Translations under genes and position numbers: made by a program
Shown: one piece after another, positions 43,177 through 52,308 of the stretch
Layout: every line of letters begins with the position of its first letter
How positions within the stretch are numbered: position 1 is the first letter of the stretch
The notes under the pieces: generated by a model
Database searches by the model: none
Told to the model about the DNA's origin: nothing
The model's input: the letters and a program-made list of their open reading frames with translations, nothing else
Assembly: GCF_029360775.1 (NCBI RefSeq)
Contig: NZ_JARKMZ010000028.1
Location: forward strand, 248,001-312,000
Length of the DNA stretch: 64,000 bases
Reading direction: 5' to 3'
Source of the DNA: Daejeonella sp. H1SJ63
GTDB lineage: Bacteria; Bacteroidota; Bacteroidia; Sphingobacteriales; Sphingobacteriaceae

Positions 43177-44238
43177 ATGAAGATCACAATTAAAAAAATC
43201 CTGTACATCATTATTCCGGCAGTAATTGTCATTCTTGCAGTTATCAGGCTGAAGAGTAATAAGGAAAAAACTCAAAAAGGAGTTTATCATTATAGCAAAG
43301 AGCAGATAATTTATGTTCGGGCGGATACGGTGAAGTTTGAAAATGTCAGTTCAGCTTTGAAGTATACAGGTTCGTTTGAACCTTTCAAAGAGAGCCGGAT
43401 CAGTTCTGAATTACAGGGGAAAATCAATGAGATTCTGGTGGCCGAAGGGAACTTAGTTAAAAAGGGACAGGCCATTATTCAGTTGGATAATTCATTGTTA
43501 AAGCTGTCTTTGCAATCTGCTATTGTTCAGAAGGAAGGTCTGGAAGCTGATGTGAAGCGATTCGGAATCCTTGTTAAAGCCGATGCGATCCAGGGAATTC
43601 AGCTTGAAAAAGCAGAATTAGGTTTAAGATCAGCGAAGGTGCAGGTAGCTACACTGCTCGAGCAGATAAATAAGTCTACTATCAGGGCACCGTTCACGGG
43701 GATTGTAACGGCTAAATTAACTGAGGTGGGCGCATTTGCTTCACCGGGTATTCCATTACTTCAGATCTCTGATATTTCCAGATTGAAATTTATTGTAAAT
43801 GTGCCTGAAGCTGATTTAAATCAGTTTCGTTTAAATCAAACCTATTCTATCAGTTCAGATGCCTACCCCAACCTTGAATTATCAGCTAAAGTTGCGATGA
43901 TAGGCAGTAAAGCTAATGCAGGGAATAGCTTTCCGGTACAATTGCTTGTCAATAATACAGCAGATTTAAAGATAAAGTCAGGCATGTTTGGAAATGTGAT
44001 TCCGGAAAATCCAGAAGCAGAACAGGGAATTTTCGTCCCTTCATCTGCTTTGTTGGGCACTTCAGATCAGCCTCAAATTTATCTGATCAGAAATGGGAAG
44101 GCTGTTTTGCAAAAAATAGTGATCGATGCTAAGGTGAATAATACCAGCAGGGTTTCTTCCGGAATAAAAGCGGGTGATGTGATAATCACAGGAGGTATGA
44201 TCAATCTGTTTAATGGTGCTAATGTACAGGTAAGGTAA
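43177..44238 (+). CDS. RND efflux periplasmic adaptor (membrane fusion protein)
   Basis: A 353-residue HlyD/AcrA-like adaptor linking the RND pump and TolC channel. An N-terminal membrane anchor (residues 5-22) is followed by a lipoyl/barrel-sandwich half (GKINEILVAEGNLVKKGQAIIQLD), a short helical hairpin, the second half (STIRAPFTGIVTAKLTEVGAF), a beta-barrel domain, and a membrane-proximal domain ending in GMINLFNGANVQVR. No lipobox is present. The hairpin is short compared with AcrA. Confidence 0.93.
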   Translation: MKITIKKILYIIIPAVIVILAVIRLKSNKEKTQKGVYHYSKEQIIYVRADTVKFENVSSALKYTGSFEPFKESRISSELQGKINEILVAEGNLVKKGQAIIQLDNSLLKLSLQSAIVQKEGLEADVKRFGILVKADAIQGIQLEKAELGLRSAKVQVATLLEQINKSTIRAPFTGIVTAKLTEVGAFASPGIPLLQISDISRLKFIVNVPEADLNQFRLNQTYSISSDAYPNLELSAKVAMIGSKANAGNSFPVQLLVNNTADLKIKSGMFGNVIPENPEAEQGIFVPSSALLGTSDQPQIYLIRNGKAVLQKIVIDAKVNNTSRVSSGIKAGDVIITGGMINLFNGANVQVR

Positions 44239-44250
44239 AATCATTGAATT

Positions 44251-47200
44251 ATGAATATTACAGAAATTTCAATCAAACGACCTTCGCTGATCATTGTTTT
44301 ATTCAGTGTATTTGCTCTTTTAGGCTTTATCGGATATAAGAATCTCAGCTATGAGCTTATGCCTGATTTTAACCAGCCCGTTGTGGTTATAAAAACAGGC
44401 TATCCCGGAGCAGAGCCTGAAGAGGTTGAGACATCCGTATCCAGAAAAATTGAGGATGCTCTTTCAAATGTTGAGGGAGTGGATTATCTGGTTACCAAAT
44501 CATTGCCGAATGCCTCTGTGATCATTGCCAATCTGAAATATGGAACCGATCTGGATAAAACCATGCAGGATGCACAGCGCTATATCGATAACATAAGGAA
44601 AGATCTTCCGGCGGATATATTAAGTCCTGTGATGAGCAAGGTCTCGCCAAATGATCTTCCGATCATGTCGGTTAGTGCCAACAGTAATATGCCGGCAACT
44701 GAGTTTTATCAGAAAATGAAGGACGAGTATCTTCCACAGATCCAACAGATTAAAGGTGTTGCAGAAATCACCATCCTTGGCGGCGAAGAGAGGGAAGTAC
44801 AGGTAAAAGTAGATGTCAATAAACTCAAGTTTTATAAAGTTTCGCTTTCTCAGGTTGTTGAGGCTATTAATCGTTCAGGAATTGATCTGCCTTCGGGCAA
44901 AGTGCAGACAGACATGGAGTTGAGTTCGGTAAGATTAAGCGGGAAGTTTAAATCTACTGATGATCTTAAAAATGTTCAGGTTGCTATGCCCTTGCCGGGC
45001 AGTCCGGTTTATGTCAGGGATGTTGCTGAGGTGACAGACGGGATTAAGGAAGCTGAATCTGTTAACCGTTATAATGGGCGTAATGGAATCGGACTTCTGT
45101 TAAAAAAACAGGGAGATGCTAATGCTGTTGAGGTCTCAAAACTGGTCAGGGAGAAGTTTAAGTTTATTGAGAAACAGAATACAGCCATGGGGCTAAGCTT
45201 TATCATTGCTTCTGATAGCACGGATAACACCATTGCGGCAGTTGATTCAGTAATTTTCGATTTGATCCTCGCTGTAATACTGGTTTCAGTAGTCATGCTA
45301 TTGTTTCTTCGCAGTTTCAGGAATTCCCTGATTGTGTTAGTGGCTATTCCAACTTCACTGATCACAGCATTTGCTGTGATGTGGCTGCTTGGATATACGC
45401 TGAATCTGATGACTTTACTGGCTATGTCATTGATTATCGGTATTCTGGTCGATGATGCCACAGTAGTATTGGAAAACATTCAGAAGCATCTGGATATGGG
45501 GAAAGAAAGACGTAAAGCAGCTATGGATGGCCGGATGGAAATTGGGTTTTCGGCTTTGTCAATAACTCTTGTTGATGTGGTGGTATTTTTGCCTATTCTT
45601 TTTTTGCAGGTCTTTGTGGCCGATATGCTGAAGCAGTTTTCTGTTGTTGTAATTACCTCAACGTTAACCAGTTTGCTGGTAGGATTTACACTGACACCCT
45701 GGATGGCCTCACGTATTGGTGTTAAGGAAGATTTGAAGCCTGGTAATTTCTTTAATCGTTTTTTACTCTGGTTTGAACGACAGCTGGAGAGTTTTATCAA
45801 TTGGTATGGAAGAGCACTTGACTGGATATTAAGACATAAATTGGTATTTGGCGGAATTATACTCCTGTTATTTGTGATGACTGCAGGAATAATGAAGCAG
45901 GGCATCATTGGCAAGGAACTTATTTCCACTGGCGATCAGGGTAAATTCAGAATGAACCTGGAATTTGATAAATCAACGTCTCTGGAGCAAAATAATGCGG
46001 TTTCGTATGAGATAGAAACATTTATTTTAAAGAATCCTGCCGTTGCAACGGTTTTCAGTAATGTAGGCGGACCAAGCACCGGAATCGGAAGTCTGGGGCA
46101 GGGGTCAGCCAATAAAACTGAATTTACGATTCAGCTGAAACCTGTATCAGAAAGGGCGAAACAGCCTACTGAAGAGTTTATGAAAAACCTTCGTGAAGAC
46201 CTGAAAGTCAAATTTCCGGGAGTGAACTATTCTATGGCATCATTGGGTTTAATTCCCCGTTCAGCTCCTGTTGAACTTACTTTAAGCGGCAGTAATGAGG
46301 AGATGGTGATGCAGGCCGGAGCTCAGATGCAATCGGCTATCGGACAAATCCCCGGTGCAGATAATGTCCGTTTGTCTGTTGAACCCGGAAGCCCTGAATA
46401 TAAAGTGGTTCCTGATAAAGATAAAATGCAGCGTTTGGGTTTAAGTACTGCTTATGTGGGAATGGCATTGAGAACAGCGTTTACCGGAAATGATGATGCA
46501 ACTTTAACAGAAAATGGTACTGAATATCCTGTCAGGATCTGGCTGGATCAATTCAGCCGTCAAAATTATGAAGATGTAAAGCATTTAACTGTAATCAATC
46601 CAATGGGTATACCGGTAGAAGTTTCCCAGTTTGCAAGTATTGAACAAAGCAGTTCTGCATCATTGCTTGAACGTAAAGACAGACAACCTGCTGTTACACT
46701 GACCGCTGAAGCATTGGGGCGTCCTTCAGGTACAGTTGCAGATGATGTAGTGGCTTATCTTAAAGCTAATCCTTTACCTGGCGATATTCAAATGACCTGG
46801 GGAAGTGATATTAAAAGACAGAACGATAGTTTTGGTGCCCTGGGTTCGGTCTTACTTATTTCCTTTCTGCTCATATACCTGATTATGGTGGCACTTTACG
46901 ATAGTTTTGTTTATCCTTTTGTGGTTCTGTTTTCTATACCTGTGGCATTAATCGGAGCATTTTTCGCTCTAAACCTTTCAATGAATAATCTGAGTTTGTT
47001 TGCATTACTTGGTCTGATTATGCTGATGGGTCTGGTAGTGAAAAATGCAATTCTGATTGTCGATTTTACTAATCAGTTAAAGGCAGAAGGGATGCACTTC
47101 AGGCAGGCATTGATTACCGCCGGAAAAGGAAGGATGCGGCCGATCCTGATGACTACCCTGTCTATGGTTATAGGGATGCTGCCAATAGCCCTGGCTTCAG

Positions 47201-47337
47201 GTACGGCATCAGAATGGAAAAACGGACTGGCCTGGGTCATTATCGGGGGACTTTTATCCTCATTAATCCTGACTGTTTTTCTGGTGCCGGTGATTTATTA
47301 TCTGGTTGACAATCTGAAAGAAAGGTGGGCTAAATAA
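44251..47337 (+). CDS. RND efflux pump permease (AcrB/MdtB type)
   Basis: A 1028-residue inner membrane transporter driven by protons. It starts MNITEISIKRPSLIIVLFSV with the first membrane helix, followed by large periplasmic loops and a duplicated set of helices, twelve in total. The proton-relay acidic pair is in GILVDDATVVLENI near residues 401-402, and the Lys of the second half is in LMGLVVKNAILIVDFTN near 930. Substrates of such pumps are drugs, dyes or detergents; hydrophobic acid export is also possible. Last gene of the tetR-led operon; no clear terminator follows. Confidence 0.95.
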   Translation: MNITEISIKRPSLIIVLFSVFALLGFIGYKNLSYELMPDFNQPVVVIKTGYPGAEPEEVETSVSRKIEDALSNVEGVDYLVTKSLPNASVIIANLKYGTDLDKTMQDAQRYIDNIRKDLPADILSPVMSKVSPNDLPIMSVSANSNMPATEFYQKMKDEYLPQIQQIKGVAEITILGGEEREVQVKVDVNKLKFYKVSLSQVVEAINRSGIDLPSGKVQTDMELSSVRLSGKFKSTDDLKNVQVAMPLPGSPVYVRDVAEVTDGIKEAESVNRYNGRNGIGLLLKKQGDANAVEVSKLVREKFKFIEKQNTAMGLSFIIASDSTDNTIAAVDSVIFDLILAVILVSVVMLLFLRSFRNSLIVLVAIPTSLITAFAVMWLLGYTLNLMTLLAMSLIIGILVDDATVVLENIQKHLDMGKERRKAAMDGRMEIGFSALSITLVDVVVFLPILFLQVFVADMLKQFSVVVITSTLTSLLVGFTLTPWMASRIGVKEDLKPGNFFNRFLLWFERQLESFINWYGRALDWILRHKLVFGGIILLLFVMTAGIMKQGIIGKELISTGDQGKFRMNLEFDKSTSLEQNNAVSYEIETFILKNPAVATVFSNVGGPSTGIGSLGQGSANKTEFTIQLKPVSERAKQPTEEFMKNLREDLKVKFPGVNYSMASLGLIPRSAPVELTLSGSNEEMVMQAGAQMQSAIGQIPGADNVRLSVEPGSPEYKVVPDKDKMQRLGLSTAYVGMALRTAFTGNDDATLTENGTEYPVRIWLDQFSRQNYEDVKHLTVINPMGIPVEVSQFASIEQSSSASLLERKDRQPAVTLTAEALGRPSGTVADDVVAYLKANPLPGDIQMTWGSDIKRQNDSFGALGSVLLISFLLIYLIMVALYDSFVYPFVVLFSIPVALIGAFFALNLSMNNLSLFALLGLIMLMGLVVKNAILIVDFTNQLKAEGMHFRQALITAGKGRMRPILMTTLSMVIGMLPIALASGTASEWKNGLAWVIIGGLLSSLILTVFLVPVIYYLVDNLKERWAK

Positions 47338-47372: not shown

Positions 47373-48539
47373 CTAAATCAGATTTTTTATCAAAATACCG
47401 ATAATTGCCGTCGCTAAGATCACTTGCGGTTCCTGAATCTTTTTGATATAAATCAGTGCAAGTAATGTCCCGGTTGCAATAAATGCAGTTGGGATATCTG
47501 TAATTGACCGGGTGGCAATAATGATGACAGTTCCCAACAAGGAACCGATTACAGCCGCGGTTATTCCATCAACAAATGCCTTGATGCTTTCATTTTTTGA
47601 GATCTTTTTGAATGATGGAGCAAGGATTACAGTGAACAAAAAGCATGGTAGGAAAGTGGCCAGAGCGGCTATGGAAGCACCCGGAAATCCTGCAATCAGA
47701 TAACCGATAAATCCAACTGTGATCACAACAGGCCCGGGGGTAATCATGGCTACAGCTACAGCGTCAATAAACTGACTTTCATTTAACCATTGATATTCTA
47801 CTACTAATCCGGCATGCAGGAAAGGAACAATAGCCAGACCACTTCCAAAAACAAAGGCTCCTGCTTTCAGAAAGAAAATGCCGATTTCAAATAGCTTATC
47901 ATCAGGAAATGCCCAAAAGCTAACTCCAGTAAGTAAAAATGCAGGTAAAGTCACCGGTTTTTTTATCCATTTTGGAGGTGACTTGTACAGAAGATAGATT
48001 ATTCCGCAGAGTACGAAAAGCAGGATTTCCTCCCTTTGCCTTACTACGGTTAATGTTACTCCGGTGAGATAGAAAATCCATAAGAGCCAGTTTTTTTTGA
48101 TTGATGTGATGTGTAATTTGCCCAGAGACTTAACCGTGAGCTTATAGGCACTGATTGCGATGATCCCGATTACACCGGCGCTTACTCCATAGAAAACATC
48201 TCTCATCCATGACAATCCACTATACGATTCGTAAGCCACTCCCAGAGCAAGAACCATCAAAAATGAGGGTAAGACGAAGGCCAGGCCTGCCAGGGTAGCT
48301 CCGAATAGGCCATAGTGCACAAAACCAATATAGATTCCCAGTTGTGCTGCGAGCGGACCGGGTGCCAGTTGAGCCAGAGCAAGCCCTTCCTTATATTCCT
48401 CTTCGTGGAGCCATTTTCGGCCCTCAACCAGGTCGCGGTGCATATACGCAACCAGAGCTACCGGACCACCAAAGCCCCAGGTGCCCAGTTTCAGAAAGTA
48501 AATGACCAATTCCCTGAGTGTATATTTTTTCTGGTTCAT
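47373..48539 (-). CDS. chrA: Chromate efflux transporter
   Basis: An inner membrane exporter of chromate (CHR family), 388 residues, made of two homologous halves. The first half carries GTWGFGGPVALVAYMH and LAPGPLAAQLGIYIG; the second carries GSGLAIVPFLHAGLV and TPGPVVITVGFIGYL. These paired FGGP/PGP signatures define long ChrA. It starts 9 bp after a small outer-membrane-like gene and lies downstream of a ChrB-type regulator, forming a chromate resistance locus. Confidence 0.95.
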   Translation of the reverse strand: MNQKKYTLRELVIYFLKLGTWGFGGPVALVAYMHRDLVEGRKWLHEEEYKEGLALAQLAPGPLAAQLGIYIGFVHYGLFGATLAGLAFVLPSFLMVLALGVAYESYSGLSWMRDVFYGVSAGVIGIIAISAYKLTVKSLGKLHITSIKKNWLLWIFYLTGVTLTVVRQREEILLFVLCGIIYLLYKSPPKWIKKPVTLPAFLLTGVSFWAFPDDKLFEIGIFFLKAGAFVFGSGLAIVPFLHAGLVVEYQWLNESQFIDAVAVAMITPGPVVITVGFIGYLIAGFPGASIAALATFLPCFLFTVILAPSFKKISKNESIKAFVDGITAAVIGSLLGTVIIIATRSITDIPTAFIATGTLLALIYIKKIQEPQVILATAIIGILIKNLI

Positions 48540-48548
48540 GATTTTTAT

Positions 48549-49088
48549 TTAAAAACCTATTCCGAACTGAAATGCGATGGTTGACGATATTGGTAATGAA
48601 TTACCAAATCTCACCGGAAGAGGAATTGCCGCAAAGTAGCTGTGGTGTTTCTTTTTGACCAGCACTTTGTTCAATACAGGGGTAAATCCATAGCGTCCGG
48701 AGGTTTCAAAAGCAGCCCTTCCCGCAAAAGTAAGGCCCTTGCCCAAAGCGAACAGTATACCCGGATGGATGAGTGTATTGCTTACCCGGCTGCTGCCGTT
48801 TTCTGCCCTTACAGATGGCACTATTTCTAATGAAAAGCCAATTTTTGAGCTTTCCCAGATATTAATTCCTAAGGGCATTCCAACAGTATAACTCTCTTTA
48901 AAATTAGAATGAGTACCTGTGCTGCTGAAGGAAATTAAAGGATGAACAATACCAACGTGACCAGCAATTCGCGGGTATGCAGTGCTATTTATTTGTGCTG
49001 AAAGTTTATGCGGGTAGCAAATGATCGTGTACAACAGGACCGGTTTTAAGAGGAACCGGCTTATGAGAAATACTAAGTTATTCTTCAT
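48549..49088 (-). CDS. Small beta-barrel-like exported protein of the chromate operon
   Basis: A 179-residue protein with a signal peptide ending around HKLSAQI. The mature part alternates polar and hydrophobic residues with glycine and aromatic positions and ends in IAFQFGIGF, a terminal aromatic that fits an eight-stranded outer membrane barrel. No family was recognised. It is the first gene after the chromate promoter and starts an operon with chrA. A role in chromate passage or sensing is only inferred. Confidence 0.6.
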   Translation of the reverse strand: MKNNLVFLISRFLLKPVLLYTIICYPHKLSAQINSTAYPRIAGHVGIVHPLISFSSTGTHSNFKESYTVGMPLGINIWESSKIGFSLEIVPSVRAENGSSRVSNTLIHPGILFALGKGLTFAGRAAFETSGRYGFTPVLNKVLVKKKHHSYFAAIPLPVRFGNSLPISSTIAFQFGIGF

Positions 49089-49092
49089 TATT

Positions 49093-49126
49093 TTGTCAGA
49101 GATAGAATTTTGTTTATCTCTGACAA
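49093..49126 (-). promoter_or_regulatory. Promoter of the chrA operon inside a 12-bp inverted repeat
   Basis: Arms TTGTCAGAGATA (49093-49104) and TATCTCTGACAA (49115-49126) are a perfect inverted repeat around a 10-bp AT-rich centre. On the minus strand the upstream arm supplies a -33 TTG and the downstream arm a -7 box TATCTCTG (one mismatch to TAnnTTTG), exactly 19 bp apart. The start codon follows 8 bp after the repeat. A regulator bound here would control access to the promoter. Confidence 0.65.
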
Positions 49127-49162
49127 TGTTAGAAAGTCAAAAGTGGGATAAATAGAATACAA

Positions 49163-50020
49163 TTAACCTTTTGTATCTTTTTTACTTTTCAGAAGATTTT
49201 TTCTGAAGATTGAGGGGTTCTCACCGGTTTGTTTTTTGAAAATCCTGGTAAAGTGACTCTGATCAGAAAACCCGGTCAGATAAGCTATTTCGGAAAGAGA
49301 GTAAGCCGGATTTTCCAATAATCCGATGGCTTTATCAATTCTTAATTTACGGATATATTCTCCAAATGAAAGATCATCGAAATGCCTTGAGAACTCTCTT
49401 GATAAGTAGGCCGGATGAACATTCAGTTCAGAGGAGATGTCTTTCAGATTTAAATTCAGATTAAAATCCAGCTGATCCTGGATAATTTCTTTTATCTCCT
49501 TAGCCCATGCCGGTGTTTTTTTGGCTGAACCCTGTTTCAGAAATTTATGGTAAACATCGAGCAGGATATGATCAACCGGATTTTGAGTATGCCTGATATC
49601 TTTCAAGTGTTTAGCCCAGCTATACAGCGCATCATAAATAACTATTCCGGCAGCCAGTAATTCCTGATCATCACGAATATTAAAAGCCAGTCCTGCAGAG
49701 ATTGCCCATAAGCCCGAAGCCTGATTGGCCAGATGGTGGACATCGGTATCTGCCCCACGTATGATGGGAGCCATTACCTGCAGGGCTGGATCGTTTAGCT
49801 CATATTTTTCAAGAAGTTTATCAAAGGTACATTTGTCGGCATGATGGCTTAATTCAATATCAGGGATATCAAATGGTATGGCATCCAGTATTTCAGCCTG
49901 TTTTAATACCTCATTAAATGGAACATAATAAAACTCTGCAGCCGGATCTATAAAGCGCCTGATCAGCCAGGGGCAGGCAATACGATCAATTTTAGGGCGT
50001 TCCCTGGTAATCCATTTCAT
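49163..50020 (-). CDS. ChrB-domain/AraC-type fusion regulator of chromate resistance
   Basis: A 285-residue protein. Residues 1-150 match the ChrB chromate-resistance domain: RPKIDRIACPWLIRRFIDP with Cys16, then LSHHADKCTFDKLL with two His and Cys64, and HHLANQASGLWAISAGLAF. Residues 175-278 form an AraC-type DNA-binding domain: LKDISSELNVHPAYLSREF as the first helix-turn-helix and LSEIAYLTGFSDQSHFTRIFKK as the second, with the P-S ending. Classical ChrB carries a different N-terminal part and no AraC domain. The gene is upstream of the outer-membrane-like gene and chrA on the same strand, so it is the likely chromate-responsive regulator. Cys and His residues are candidate oxyanion or metal contacts. 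Confidence 0.85.
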   Translation of the reverse strand: MKWITRERPKIDRIACPWLIRRFIDPAAEFYYVPFNEVLKQAEILDAIPFDIPDIELSHHADKCTFDKLLEKYELNDPALQVMAPIIRGADTDVHHLANQASGLWAISAGLAFNIRDDQELLAAGIVIYDALYSWAKHLKDIRHTQNPVDHILLDVYHKFLKQGSAKKTPAWAKEIKEIIQDQLDFNLNLNLKDISSELNVHPAYLSREFSRHFDDLSFGEYIRKLRIDKAIGLLENPAYSLSEIAYLTGFSDQSHFTRIFKKQTGENPSIFRKNLLKSKKDTKG

Positions 50021-50031
50021 GTGTGCAATAT

Positions 50032-50080
50032 AAAGAATACGAAATCACCTGCAGATCTCTAAGGTGATTTCGTATTCTTT
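50032..50080 (-). terminator. Terminator of the M28 peptidase gene
   Basis: A perfect 19-bp stem with arms at 50032-50050 and 50062-50080 and an 11-base loop. It starts at the peptidase stop codon and ends 12 bp before the ChrB/AraC start codon, separating the two minus-strand genes. Confidence 0.85.
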
Positions 50081-52308
50081 TAATCTGCCAGTTTTGTAGT
50101 TGATTTCAAATGTTCGGCCAAACCGCTGATCATATTTGCAGCAATTCTGATCTGATCCTGAGCCTCTTTCCAATCGCGCTGCTCAATGGCTTCACGTATT
50201 CCGGGCATGGTTTTTACCCCATAGCCGGTATAGAATCCGGGAGCATAAAGCGTATGTTTATACCATGGACGTCTTGGTAAACCGTCCGGGTTCAGCAGAC
50301 TTTGTTCTGCACGATATAGTGCTTCATTAATTGCTCTTAAGGATTTTAAAGGGGTATTTTCATTATTCAATCTTTCAGATAATGCATTTGCCGACTGATC
50401 CAGCTGTACCAGTGAGTTCTGAAGTGCTGAGAAATCGATGAAAGGTACCTCTGTTTTTGTAACAGGTAGTTTCGCTGGTTTAGCAGGATCAGCTGCCAGT
50501 TTATGATTGTTTCCCTGAATTACCTGATTATAGATGAGTGTAGATTCTCTCATCTGATCAGTCATGCTGATCATCTCATTTACATATGAAGAGATCGTTT
50601 TATGAAGGTTTTTGAATTCGAAAGGAAGTGTATCTGCATTAGCCATTCTAAGTACAGCACGGCCAATTGTTTGAGAAAGCGCACGGCCATAATTAAAGCC
50701 CGGATCACCGAATTTGCTGTAATAATCATAAGAATCGTAGGCAGTATGATACTCTCCGCCTGCATTCTCTCCACCATAATAAATGTTCAGAGAAGGAATA
50801 CCGGCATGTTGCAGGAAAGCTGAATAGTCAGACCCGGAACCCAGTGCACCGATAGTCATTGATTTTCTGGCTAAATTATCCTTTTTAGCTTTGTCTGTTC
50901 CGGCATTTACGATGTCTTTTGCTTTCAGGCGGTCAAAAACACTTACATTGGTTTGAGGATCAGTCACATCTTTTGCAATCCCGTCAATCATAGCTTCCAG
51001 TCCGTGTGAGCCTGCTACTGATAAAAATCCACGCCCGTTTCCATCAGAATTGATATAAACTACTGCTTTTTGTTTCAGCTCAGCGGCATGATCTTCTACC
51101 CATTCGGTTGAGCCTATCAGTCCCGGTTCTTCAGCATCCCATGCGCAATAAACCAGTGTACGTTTGGGCTTATATCCATTTTTAACCAATTCGCCAATGG
51201 CTTTGGCTTCTTCCATCATGGCGGCAATTCCACTGATCGGATCATTGGCCCCGGTATTCCATCCATCATGGTGATTGCCCCGTACCACCCACTGGTCGGG
51301 ATATTCTGCCCCCCTGATTTTTGCGATCACATTGTAGGCTGGTACGATCTTCCAGTCGAATTCGACCTTTAAGCGCACGGAAGTTTTACCCGGGCCGATA
51401 TGATAGGTAAATGGCAAAGCTCCCCGCCAGTCCTCAGGAGCAACCGGTCCGCCGAGCGATTGAAGCAGCGGCTGAGCATCATGATAGCTAATCGGTAAGA
51501 CAGGAATCTTCAGCAGGTTTTCTGCATCCTCACGTTCCAGACGTTTGGCATTTTCAGTAGCACCAATAAAAGGGGTTAATGGATCACCCGGATAAACAAC
51601 CATATCCATGATTGATCCGCGCTGAACGCCAAATTCATTTTTAAAACTTCCCTTTGGATATACATCTCCCTGGAAATAACCATCTTCCATCGGGTCAGAG
51701 TAAATAATACAGCCTATAGCACCATGCTCCTGAGCCACTTTGGGCTTAATTCCGCGCCATGATCTTCCGTATCGGGCAATTACGATCTTGCCCTTTACAT
51801 CAATGCCCAGCTTATCGAGCACTTCATAATCCTCAGGCAGGCCAAAGTTTACAAATACCAGTTCGGCATTAACATCCCCGTCGGCACTCCATGCATTGTA
51901 GGAGGGAAGCTGATCCGGATGTCCGGAGGTCGCATCTTCTTTCAAAGCCGGTTCTTTCAGTAAAGCCCTGAACTTTGTTGGTGCAGTCATTTCCAGAATT
52001 CGCACTTTAGGCTTCGGAAACAGAACCTGATAGGTTTCAATTTCAGCATCCCAGCCGTAGCTTTTGAATTTGGCAAGGAGGTTTTCTGCAACCTCTTTAC
52101 TTCCAACTGATCCTAAATAATGAGGTTTCAGCGTAAGCTCTTTGATGGTTTTGCCGATGCTTTCGCTGCTGATTAAGGCATCGAATTTAGCCTCAGTTTG
52201 TTGCTGCGAATTGCGATTGCCGGCTTTAAAGCCACTCAGATTTTGCGAATACACCGATGCGGAACTGAGCAGCAGGGCAGCAGTTAAATTCAAATAGAAT
52301 TTGTTCAT
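50080..52308 (-). CDS. M28-family zinc peptidase (glutamate carboxypeptidase II type)
   Basis: A 742-residue exported peptidase. The signal peptide ends at SVYSQ. A protease-associated domain occupies about 115-290 (KGKIVIARYGRSWRGIKPKVA). The M28 domain has the metal ligands in RGNHHDGWNTGANDPISG, catalytic and metal Glu in WDAEEPGLIGSTEW, Asp in NSDGNGRG and His in GEYHTAYDSYDYY. A C-terminal helical domain resembles the transferrin-receptor dimerisation domain. It probably cleaves acidic C-terminal residues from peptides outside the cytoplasm. Confidence 0.93.
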   Translation of the reverse strand: MNKFYLNLTAALLLSSASVYSQNLSGFKAGNRNSQQQTEAKFDALISSESIGKTIKELTLKPHYLGSVGSKEVAENLLAKFKSYGWDAEIETYQVLFPKPKVRILEMTAPTKFRALLKEPALKEDATSGHPDQLPSYNAWSADGDVNAELVFVNFGLPEDYEVLDKLGIDVKGKIVIARYGRSWRGIKPKVAQEHGAIGCIIYSDPMEDGYFQGDVYPKGSFKNEFGVQRGSIMDMVVYPGDPLTPFIGATENAKRLEREDAENLLKIPVLPISYHDAQPLLQSLGGPVAPEDWRGALPFTYHIGPGKTSVRLKVEFDWKIVPAYNVIAKIRGAEYPDQWVVRGNHHDGWNTGANDPISGIAAMMEEAKAIGELVKNGYKPKRTLVYCAWDAEEPGLIGSTEWVEDHAAELKQKAVVYINSDGNGRGFLSVAGSHGLEAMIDGIAKDVTDPQTNVSVFDRLKAKDIVNAGTDKAKKDNLARKSMTIGALGSGSDYSAFLQHAGIPSLNIYYGGENAGGEYHTAYDSYDYYSKFGDPGFNYGRALSQTIGRAVLRMANADTLPFEFKNLHKTISSYVNEMISMTDQMRESTLIYNQVIQGNNHKLAADPAKPAKLPVTKTEVPFIDFSALQNSLVQLDQSANALSERLNNENTPLKSLRAINEALYRAEQSLLNPDGLPRRPWYKHTLYAPGFYTGYGVKTMPGIREAIEQRDWKEAQDQIRIAANMISGLAEHLKSTTKLAD

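Follow-up and report, generated by a model that had tools for sequence, protein, structure and literature searches.

A ChrF-type domain fused to an AraC-type DNA-binding domain in Bacteroidota, and a putative operator-promoter conserved behind its gene

The 285-residue protein encoded at positions 49163..50020, on the minus strand, of the window (the whole 64,000-nucleotide stretch of Daejeonella sp. H1SJ63 DNA analysed here) joins a ChrB_C-family domain to a two-HTH AraC-type domain. From its sequence, it is best read as an AraC-family regulator with a ChrF-type effector domain. Its gene, which starts with ATG, is followed on the same strand by the gene of a predicted small outer-membrane barrel and then by chrA. 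A putative operator-promoter, GGTnAATTnCGTTCTATTT-N18-TAnnnTTG, lies directly behind the fusion gene, and its conservation before the chromate-export genes of many relatives suggests that the fusion turns those genes on. A preliminary description of the locus was correct in the boundaries, the length, and two quoted peptides, and recognized both domains and chrA; the conserved site, the barrel gene, and the variety of downstream genes had escaped it. Such proteins are already labelled "chromate resistance protein ChrB domain-containing protein" in RefSeq. No study of a ChrF-AraC fusion or of its site was found in the open-licence literature searched, outside which most subscription journals lie.

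The coexistence of the two domains in one protein, as first described, is borne out by profile matches far above the cut-offs. The Pfam family ChrB_C (PF09828) matches residues 3–135 (49616..50014, minus strand) with 172.4 bits (E 7e-51; cut-off 25), within the first 150 residues, where a ChrB match had been expected. HTH_18 matches residues 196–274 (49199..49435, minus strand) with 75 bits (cut-off 33.6), and the HTH_AraC match scores 48.9 bits (cut-off 26.6). In the predicted model, the C-terminal part resembles the DNA-binding domains of the AraC family (best Z 13.7), and a linker of about residues 140–172 (49505..49603, minus strand) shows pLDDT values below 50 at residues 143–157 and 159–166. 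Pfam names its ChrB_C family "ChrB, C-terminal domain." In ChrB, this domain indeed follows an N-terminal DNA-binding half (ChrB_N), whereas in the fusion it occupies the N-terminus. ChrB_N is absent from the window protein at E values up to 1 and from the 25 Pfam families listed for 49 fusions; its profile does detect classical ChrB, as it matched the one at locus L104.

The sensor half is of the ChrF rather than the ChrB type. Among the matches listed in a comparison with 72,556 plasmid records, 38 proteins ranking below two fusions are 53–62% identical to the first half of the fusion over 136–149 amino acids. In the three records used as ChrF, the gene lies behind chrA and, in two of them, also behind a superoxide dismutase gene. 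The window domain is 32–36% identical to the ChrB proteins of Klebsiella, Acinetobacter, and Sphingobium, and 43–44% identical to two actinobacterial ChrB-domain proteins. According to a tree of 125 ChrB_C domains, built by a quick method on 140 columns and with long branches flagged, eight ChrB-type rows are split from the 117 others with a support of 99, and the fusion does not group with ChrB. These 117 rows comprise 92 fusions, 20 stand-alone Bacteroidota proteins, three Pseudomonadota ChrF, and two rhodanese fusions. One group (support 98) unites 18 of the stand-alone rows with the ChrF rows, the rhodanese fusions, and a single fusion, L161; the other two stand-alone rows are fragments of broken fusions. 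As both the identities and the tree place the sensor half with ChrF, the name ChrF-AraC seems to fit the gene better than that of a re-headed ChrB, and we rejected the narrow formulation "ChrB with an AraC head." The earlier ChrB assignment thus holds for the family and not for the type. Chromate sensing can therefore not be transferred from ChrB by name, and what stands of the one-component chromate sensor proposed at the outset is a regulator-like ChrB_C-family/AraC protein belonging to a gene set with chrA.

Four known groups of proteins resemble the fusion in part. ChrF (encoded by O. tritici chrBACF and C. metallidurans chrF) is the closest relative of its N-terminal half among the matches listed, and O. 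tritici ChrF begins, like the fusion, with MKWITRE, as read from a primer in excerpts of PMC4779226. ChrF is, however, a stand-alone protein of about 150 amino acids without the AraC domain or any other DNA-binding domain. In C. metallidurans, it has been suggested to be regulatory (PMC3817168; PMC7060636, both in part). The ChrB regulators of these two species share with the fusion the ChrB_C family, three residues required for chromate induction, and the linkage to chrA; ChrB binds upstream of its own gene, according to excerpts of PMC3817168, whereas the putative site of the fusion lies behind its gene. One-component regulators of the AraC/XylS family share the two-HTH domain, and the arrangement with a site behind the gene recurs at three AraC genes that have other sensors; the effector domain of the fusion differs in being ChrF-type, not AraC_binding or DUF6597. 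Finally, in rhodanese-ChrB_C fusions ("sulfurtransferase/chromate resistance protein"), a ChrF-type domain is likewise joined to a partner beside chrA, but this partner is a sulfurtransferase-like domain.

Among substitutions made in O. tritici ChrB, R180A, R187A, and H229A eliminated induction by chromate, C213A made no significant difference, and H258A yielded no soluble protein (PMC3817168, in excerpts). The spacing of residues in relatives equates R6, R13, and H59 of the fusion with R180, R187, and H229, respectively. R6 is kept in 90, R13 in 91, and H59 in all of the 92 fusions, and the three residues are also present in 21/21 ChrF-like stand-alone rows and 8/8 ChrB-type rows, counts that omit two stand-alone rows (L185 and L058) made of broken-fusion pieces. 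Because ChrF keeps the same three residues, their conservation is no proof of sensing; it points to a common binding or active site, which we infer may serve the fusion as its sensing site. The preliminary description had looked to histidines and cysteines for this role. H59, the counterpart of ChrB H229, has indirect support, and H60 is not conserved, being a histidine in 4 of the 92 fusions. C16 (91/92) and C64 (90/92) are well kept in the fusions and also in ChrF; each occurs in only three of the eight ChrB-type rows, and the dispensable cysteine of ChrB, C213, occupies another position. Fusions, ChrF, and ChrB alike conserve D12, D51, H59, and D91.

The fusion gene had been placed next to chrA. 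Both belong to one gene set on one strand, and a further gene intervenes at 48549..49088 (minus strand). It encodes a 179-residue protein matching no Pfam or NCBIfam family at E values up to 1, which we predict to be a small outer-membrane β-barrel: in its model (pLDDT 90), a signal-like N-terminal helix is followed by strands, and its best structural matches are OmpX, OmpA, and designed barrels, with modest scores (best E 2e-4). This gene is kept in 41–42 aligned relatives. The chrA gene (47373..48539, minus strand) encodes a chromate efflux transporter of 388 amino acids (PF02417, 269 bits; TIGR00937, 380.7 bits for a cut-off of 171.7). On the plus strand, MFP and RND efflux genes (43177–47337) run towards chrA in a convergent orientation; an RND set lies directly behind the fusion in some relatives. 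Upstream of the fusion, on its strand, an M28 peptidase gene occupies 50080–52308, and a 19-nt perfect inverted repeat lies between the two genes (50032–50080). We considered this repeat as an operator and rejected it: its sequence drifts in locus L190 and its position is the end of the preceding gene, so that it is probably a terminator.

The putative operator, GGTTAATTGTATTCTATTT, overlaps the stop codon of the fusion gene (49150..49168, minus strand) and is followed after 18 nt by a putative −7 promoter box, TAACATTG (49124..49131, minus strand). The aligned motif reads gGTaAatt.cGTTCTATTTt, then TAnnnTTG 18 nt after GTTCTATTT, and this spacing is fixed. The −7 box of Bacteroidota promoters is TAnnTTTG, which TAnnnTTG resembles. 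Allowing at most one mismatch, GTTCTATT occurs in 84 of 116 regions behind fusion genes vs. 6 of 116 Markov-shuffled ones. In a two-fold cross-validation with a 1% null threshold, on 118 regions kept from 132 after near-identical ones were dropped, the site was recovered in 108/118 held-out downstream regions, compared with 2/117 regions upstream of the gene and 0/118 inside it. The window region scores 33.5 bits (thresholds 4.2 and 4.8). According to the first downstream gene, the site is found before the barrel gene in 54/55 cases, chrA in 24/24, ChrF in 7/7, other genes in 4/8, and where no gene follows in 1/5; for the classes assigned by length, with representatives checked, the counts are 9/9 for TolC-RND, 6/7 for DUF1259-like, and 3/3 for MacB/FtsX-like genes. 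In the window, a 12-nt perfect inverted repeat begins at the −7 box (49093–49126). Two further candidates were discarded. A search for a common motif upstream of the fusion gene gave enrichment limited to promoter-like boxes. A large regulon defined by the exact short pattern was not found either: genome-wide matches are near the control level, with 55 in 36 fusion genomes vs. 49 in the reversed control, and 40 vs. 32 in 36 genomes in which no intact fusion was matched (all hand sums). A second exact match in the window genome (C21:592130) was taken as unrelated, since it scores 6.0 bits and a near-identical sequence exists in members of the genus without a ChrB_C match.

Four fusion genes (L064, L075, L054, and L092) have no adjacent site, and their genomes carry it before detached genes. 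In genome G153, it precedes a barrel gene (36.5 bits) and chrA (35.8 bits) on other contigs; in G031, a detached barrel-chrA pair (23.9 bits); in G021, a detached chrA (27.6 bits); and in G224, chrA (31.0 bits; found via the motif search). The L257 site was found via this search, in which the G153 sites were also first noticed; G031 and G021 gave no exact-pattern match in it. Of five detached barrel or chrA loci inspected in genomes with a fusion, four have the site; the second barrel gene of the fusion-bearing G116 is without it. Twelve genomes lacking a ChrB_C match provided 14 barrel or chrA loci for comparison, none with a site above 12 bits; the background maximum was 11.4 bits in 200 kb of reversed sequence. 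A Daejeonella genome (L190/L284, G109:C56) lacks the ChrB_C part and retains the AraC part, the site (36.3 bits), the barrel gene, and chrA; this locus may reflect a broken gene or an assembly effect. Three AraC genes whose sensor is of another kind (DUF6597 or AraC_binding) are likewise followed immediately by a similar site, and have different downstream genes: L252 (1490–1535, 24.4 bits), L264 (1500–1545, 20.2 bits), and L267 (1490–1535, 26.5 bits), the DNA-binding part of the latter being 46% identical to that of the window fusion. The site is thus not exclusive to the fusion and is probably common to a wider group of Bacteroidota AraC activators; as G031 also holds L264, its detached site is a less clear case.

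ChrB_C was detected in 42/201 genomes of the sample of the window's family and in 18/395 of the phylum sample, which overlap. Among 60 Bacteroidota ChrB_C loci (59 larger loci fetched and the window), 54 encode the fusion, and five of the remaining six are broken or partial copies (L058, L089, L090, L091, and L105). The sixth (L104; G395:C52, 548–1516), in a distant member of the phylum, is a classical ChrB with ChrB_N adjoining chrA; both regulator types therefore exist in Bacteroidota. The fusion is the usual ChrB_C protein in the sampled Bacteroidota, and the architecture is widespread there. From a contig scan, the best 80 of 578 relatives were retained; their record titles all name Bacteroidota (Pedobacter, Mucilaginibacter, Flavobacterium, Dyadobacter, Chitinophaga, and others), and 77 of the 80 carry the fusion. 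Among 1014 plasmid records with a match, coverage reaches at least 80% in only two, both from Bacteroidota.

The survey of the neighbourhood of chrA called for by the preliminary description showed a varied cargo behind the fusion. Within 8 kb downstream of the 54 fusions of the whole-genome set, chrA is present in 38 and the barrel gene in 36; seven have none of chrA, barrel, and ChrF. In the contig set (the 77 fusions from the best 80 of 578), which shares some organisms with the former and includes contigs that end early, the corresponding numbers are 40, 35, and 15. Other cargo includes TolC-RND-MFP sets (in Mucilaginibacter and others), MacB/FtsX-like permeases, stand-alone ChrF, and DUF1259 proteins. 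At L051 and L055, a TolC-RND-MFP set, ChrF, and chrA all lie behind one fusion on the same strand. A DUF1259 gene is also present in the chr region of C. metallidurans and probably encodes ChrL, the LppY/LpqO lipoprotein of PMC7060636. The barrel gene occurs in 45/201 genomes of the family, of which 32 also have ChrB_C (hand comparison); it is thus associated with the fusion and not confined to fusion genomes. On the Pedobacter plasmid pA27BH1 (L107, 671–8719), the fusion, a barrel gene (by profile), chrA, and stand-alone ChrB-domain and DUF1259 genes adjoin a Tn3 transposase and a recombinase, so that this gene set may be mobile.

We favour, as fairly probable, a model in which the fusion is a one-component activator of the barrel gene and chrA. 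The ChrF-type domain would act as an N-terminal effector domain, connected by the flexible linker to the AraC-type DNA-binding domain; the latter would bind the site right behind its own gene, which would stand in for the −33 box in the promoter serving the genes that follow. Chromate, or stress caused by chromate, would reach the ChrF domain and lead to activation of these genes. Activators of the AraC family have their site in the −33 position at a fixed distance from the −7 box. As the site behind the fusion gene is arranged in this way, the fusion is most likely an activator. The effector read by the ChrF half is probably chromate or chromate-caused stress, judging from the domain, its residues, and its neighbours.

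The nature of the effector is the point on which another reading deserves most attention. The ChrF half could be a manganese protein reading oxidative stress, with superoxide, redox state, or a metal as the effector and chrA as one of several outputs. O. tritici ChrF is reported, in excerpts of PMC4779226, to be dimeric, to contain 1.0 mol Mn per mol, and to act as a superoxide dismutase that Cr(III), Fe(II), and Cd(II) inhibit; fusions without chrA in their cargo can be followed by TolC-RND, MacB/FtsX-like, or barrel-only sets. We nevertheless regard this reading as rather improbable, since the recurrent partners are chrA, stand-alone ChrF, and DUF1259 genes, and the chromate-response residues of ChrB are kept in the fusions. 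The fusion might also repress the downstream promoter and be released by chromate, as reported for ChrB. The placement of the site, which is the one expected for AraC-family activators, makes this unlikely, and the DNA-binding domain of ChrB is another one. Repression would agree with a near-palindrome starting at the −7 box in 10/108 site-bearing regions, compared with 0.8% of shuffled tails, with the lowered expression caused by O. tritici ChrB, in the absence of chromate, at the promoter that precedes its own gene (PMC3817168, in excerpts), and with the description of ChrF as a putative repressor in parts of PMC7060636.

The similar sites behind AraC genes with other sensors raise the question of whether the site serves other AraC activators, or is a general promoter type, with the fusion binding elsewhere. 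The contrast between barrel or chrA loci of genomes without ChrB_C (0/14) and detached loci of fusion genomes (4/5) argues against this, and we give it little weight. It is most improbable that the protein is mainly a ChrF enzyme with a leftover AraC part: its N-terminal domain does retain the residues common to ChrF, but the AraC part shows no variation at F251, D253, H256, and R259 among 49 sequences, and a separate ChrF is found beside the fusion at several loci.

The fold of the sensor half offers a structural lead. Foldseek alone listed no clear match for residues 1–140. When its candidates were re-aligned by VIA-align, the listed rows covering this region were mostly of DHH type by name, with Z values of 4.7–7.4, below the caution level of the tool: PAP phosphatase (8a8k), PggH (7d62), NrN (9lqc), Cdc45 (6cc2), type II pyrophosphatases (6ll7 and 1wpn), and 8b9d_C. 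We take the first six structures to be those of DHH superfamily proteins. Sequence comparison did not extend this lead: hhalign found no homology to DHH proteins (probability below 1% vs. NrnA-type and RecJ alignments), none of the 25 Pfam families listed for 49 fusions is a DHH family, and sequence profiles gave no solved relative of the N-terminal half, whose family may still be missing from the profile database. By the order of structural elements, D12, D51, H59, and D91 would fall where DHH motifs I–IV would lie. Tentatively, and with more doubt than confidence, we propose for the ChrB_C/ChrF domain a divergent, Mn-binding fold of the DHH type, in which the site for phosphate has been converted into one for an oxyanion (chromate), with D12, D51, H59, and D91 as metal ligands and R6 and R13 holding CrO4(2−). 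Fused to an AraC head in Bacteroidota, it would form a chromate switch separate from ChrB, with an operator travelling with chrA, barrel, RND, and MacB-type exporters. This would account for the one Mn per ChrF and for the importance of R180, R187, and H229 in ChrB.

If the activator model is right, Bacteroidota have a chromate-linked regulator that differs from ChrB in its DNA-binding head, its domain order, and the position of its operator, and the short DNA site makes the idea of a regulator directly testable. It would also connect the chr system with an uncharacterized family of outer-membrane barrels and with some of the RND and MacB/FtsX-like exporters. Should the ChrF half sense chromate, a resistance protein would have been turned into a sensor, and the fusion with its site could find use in Bacteroidota as a part for chromate biosensors.
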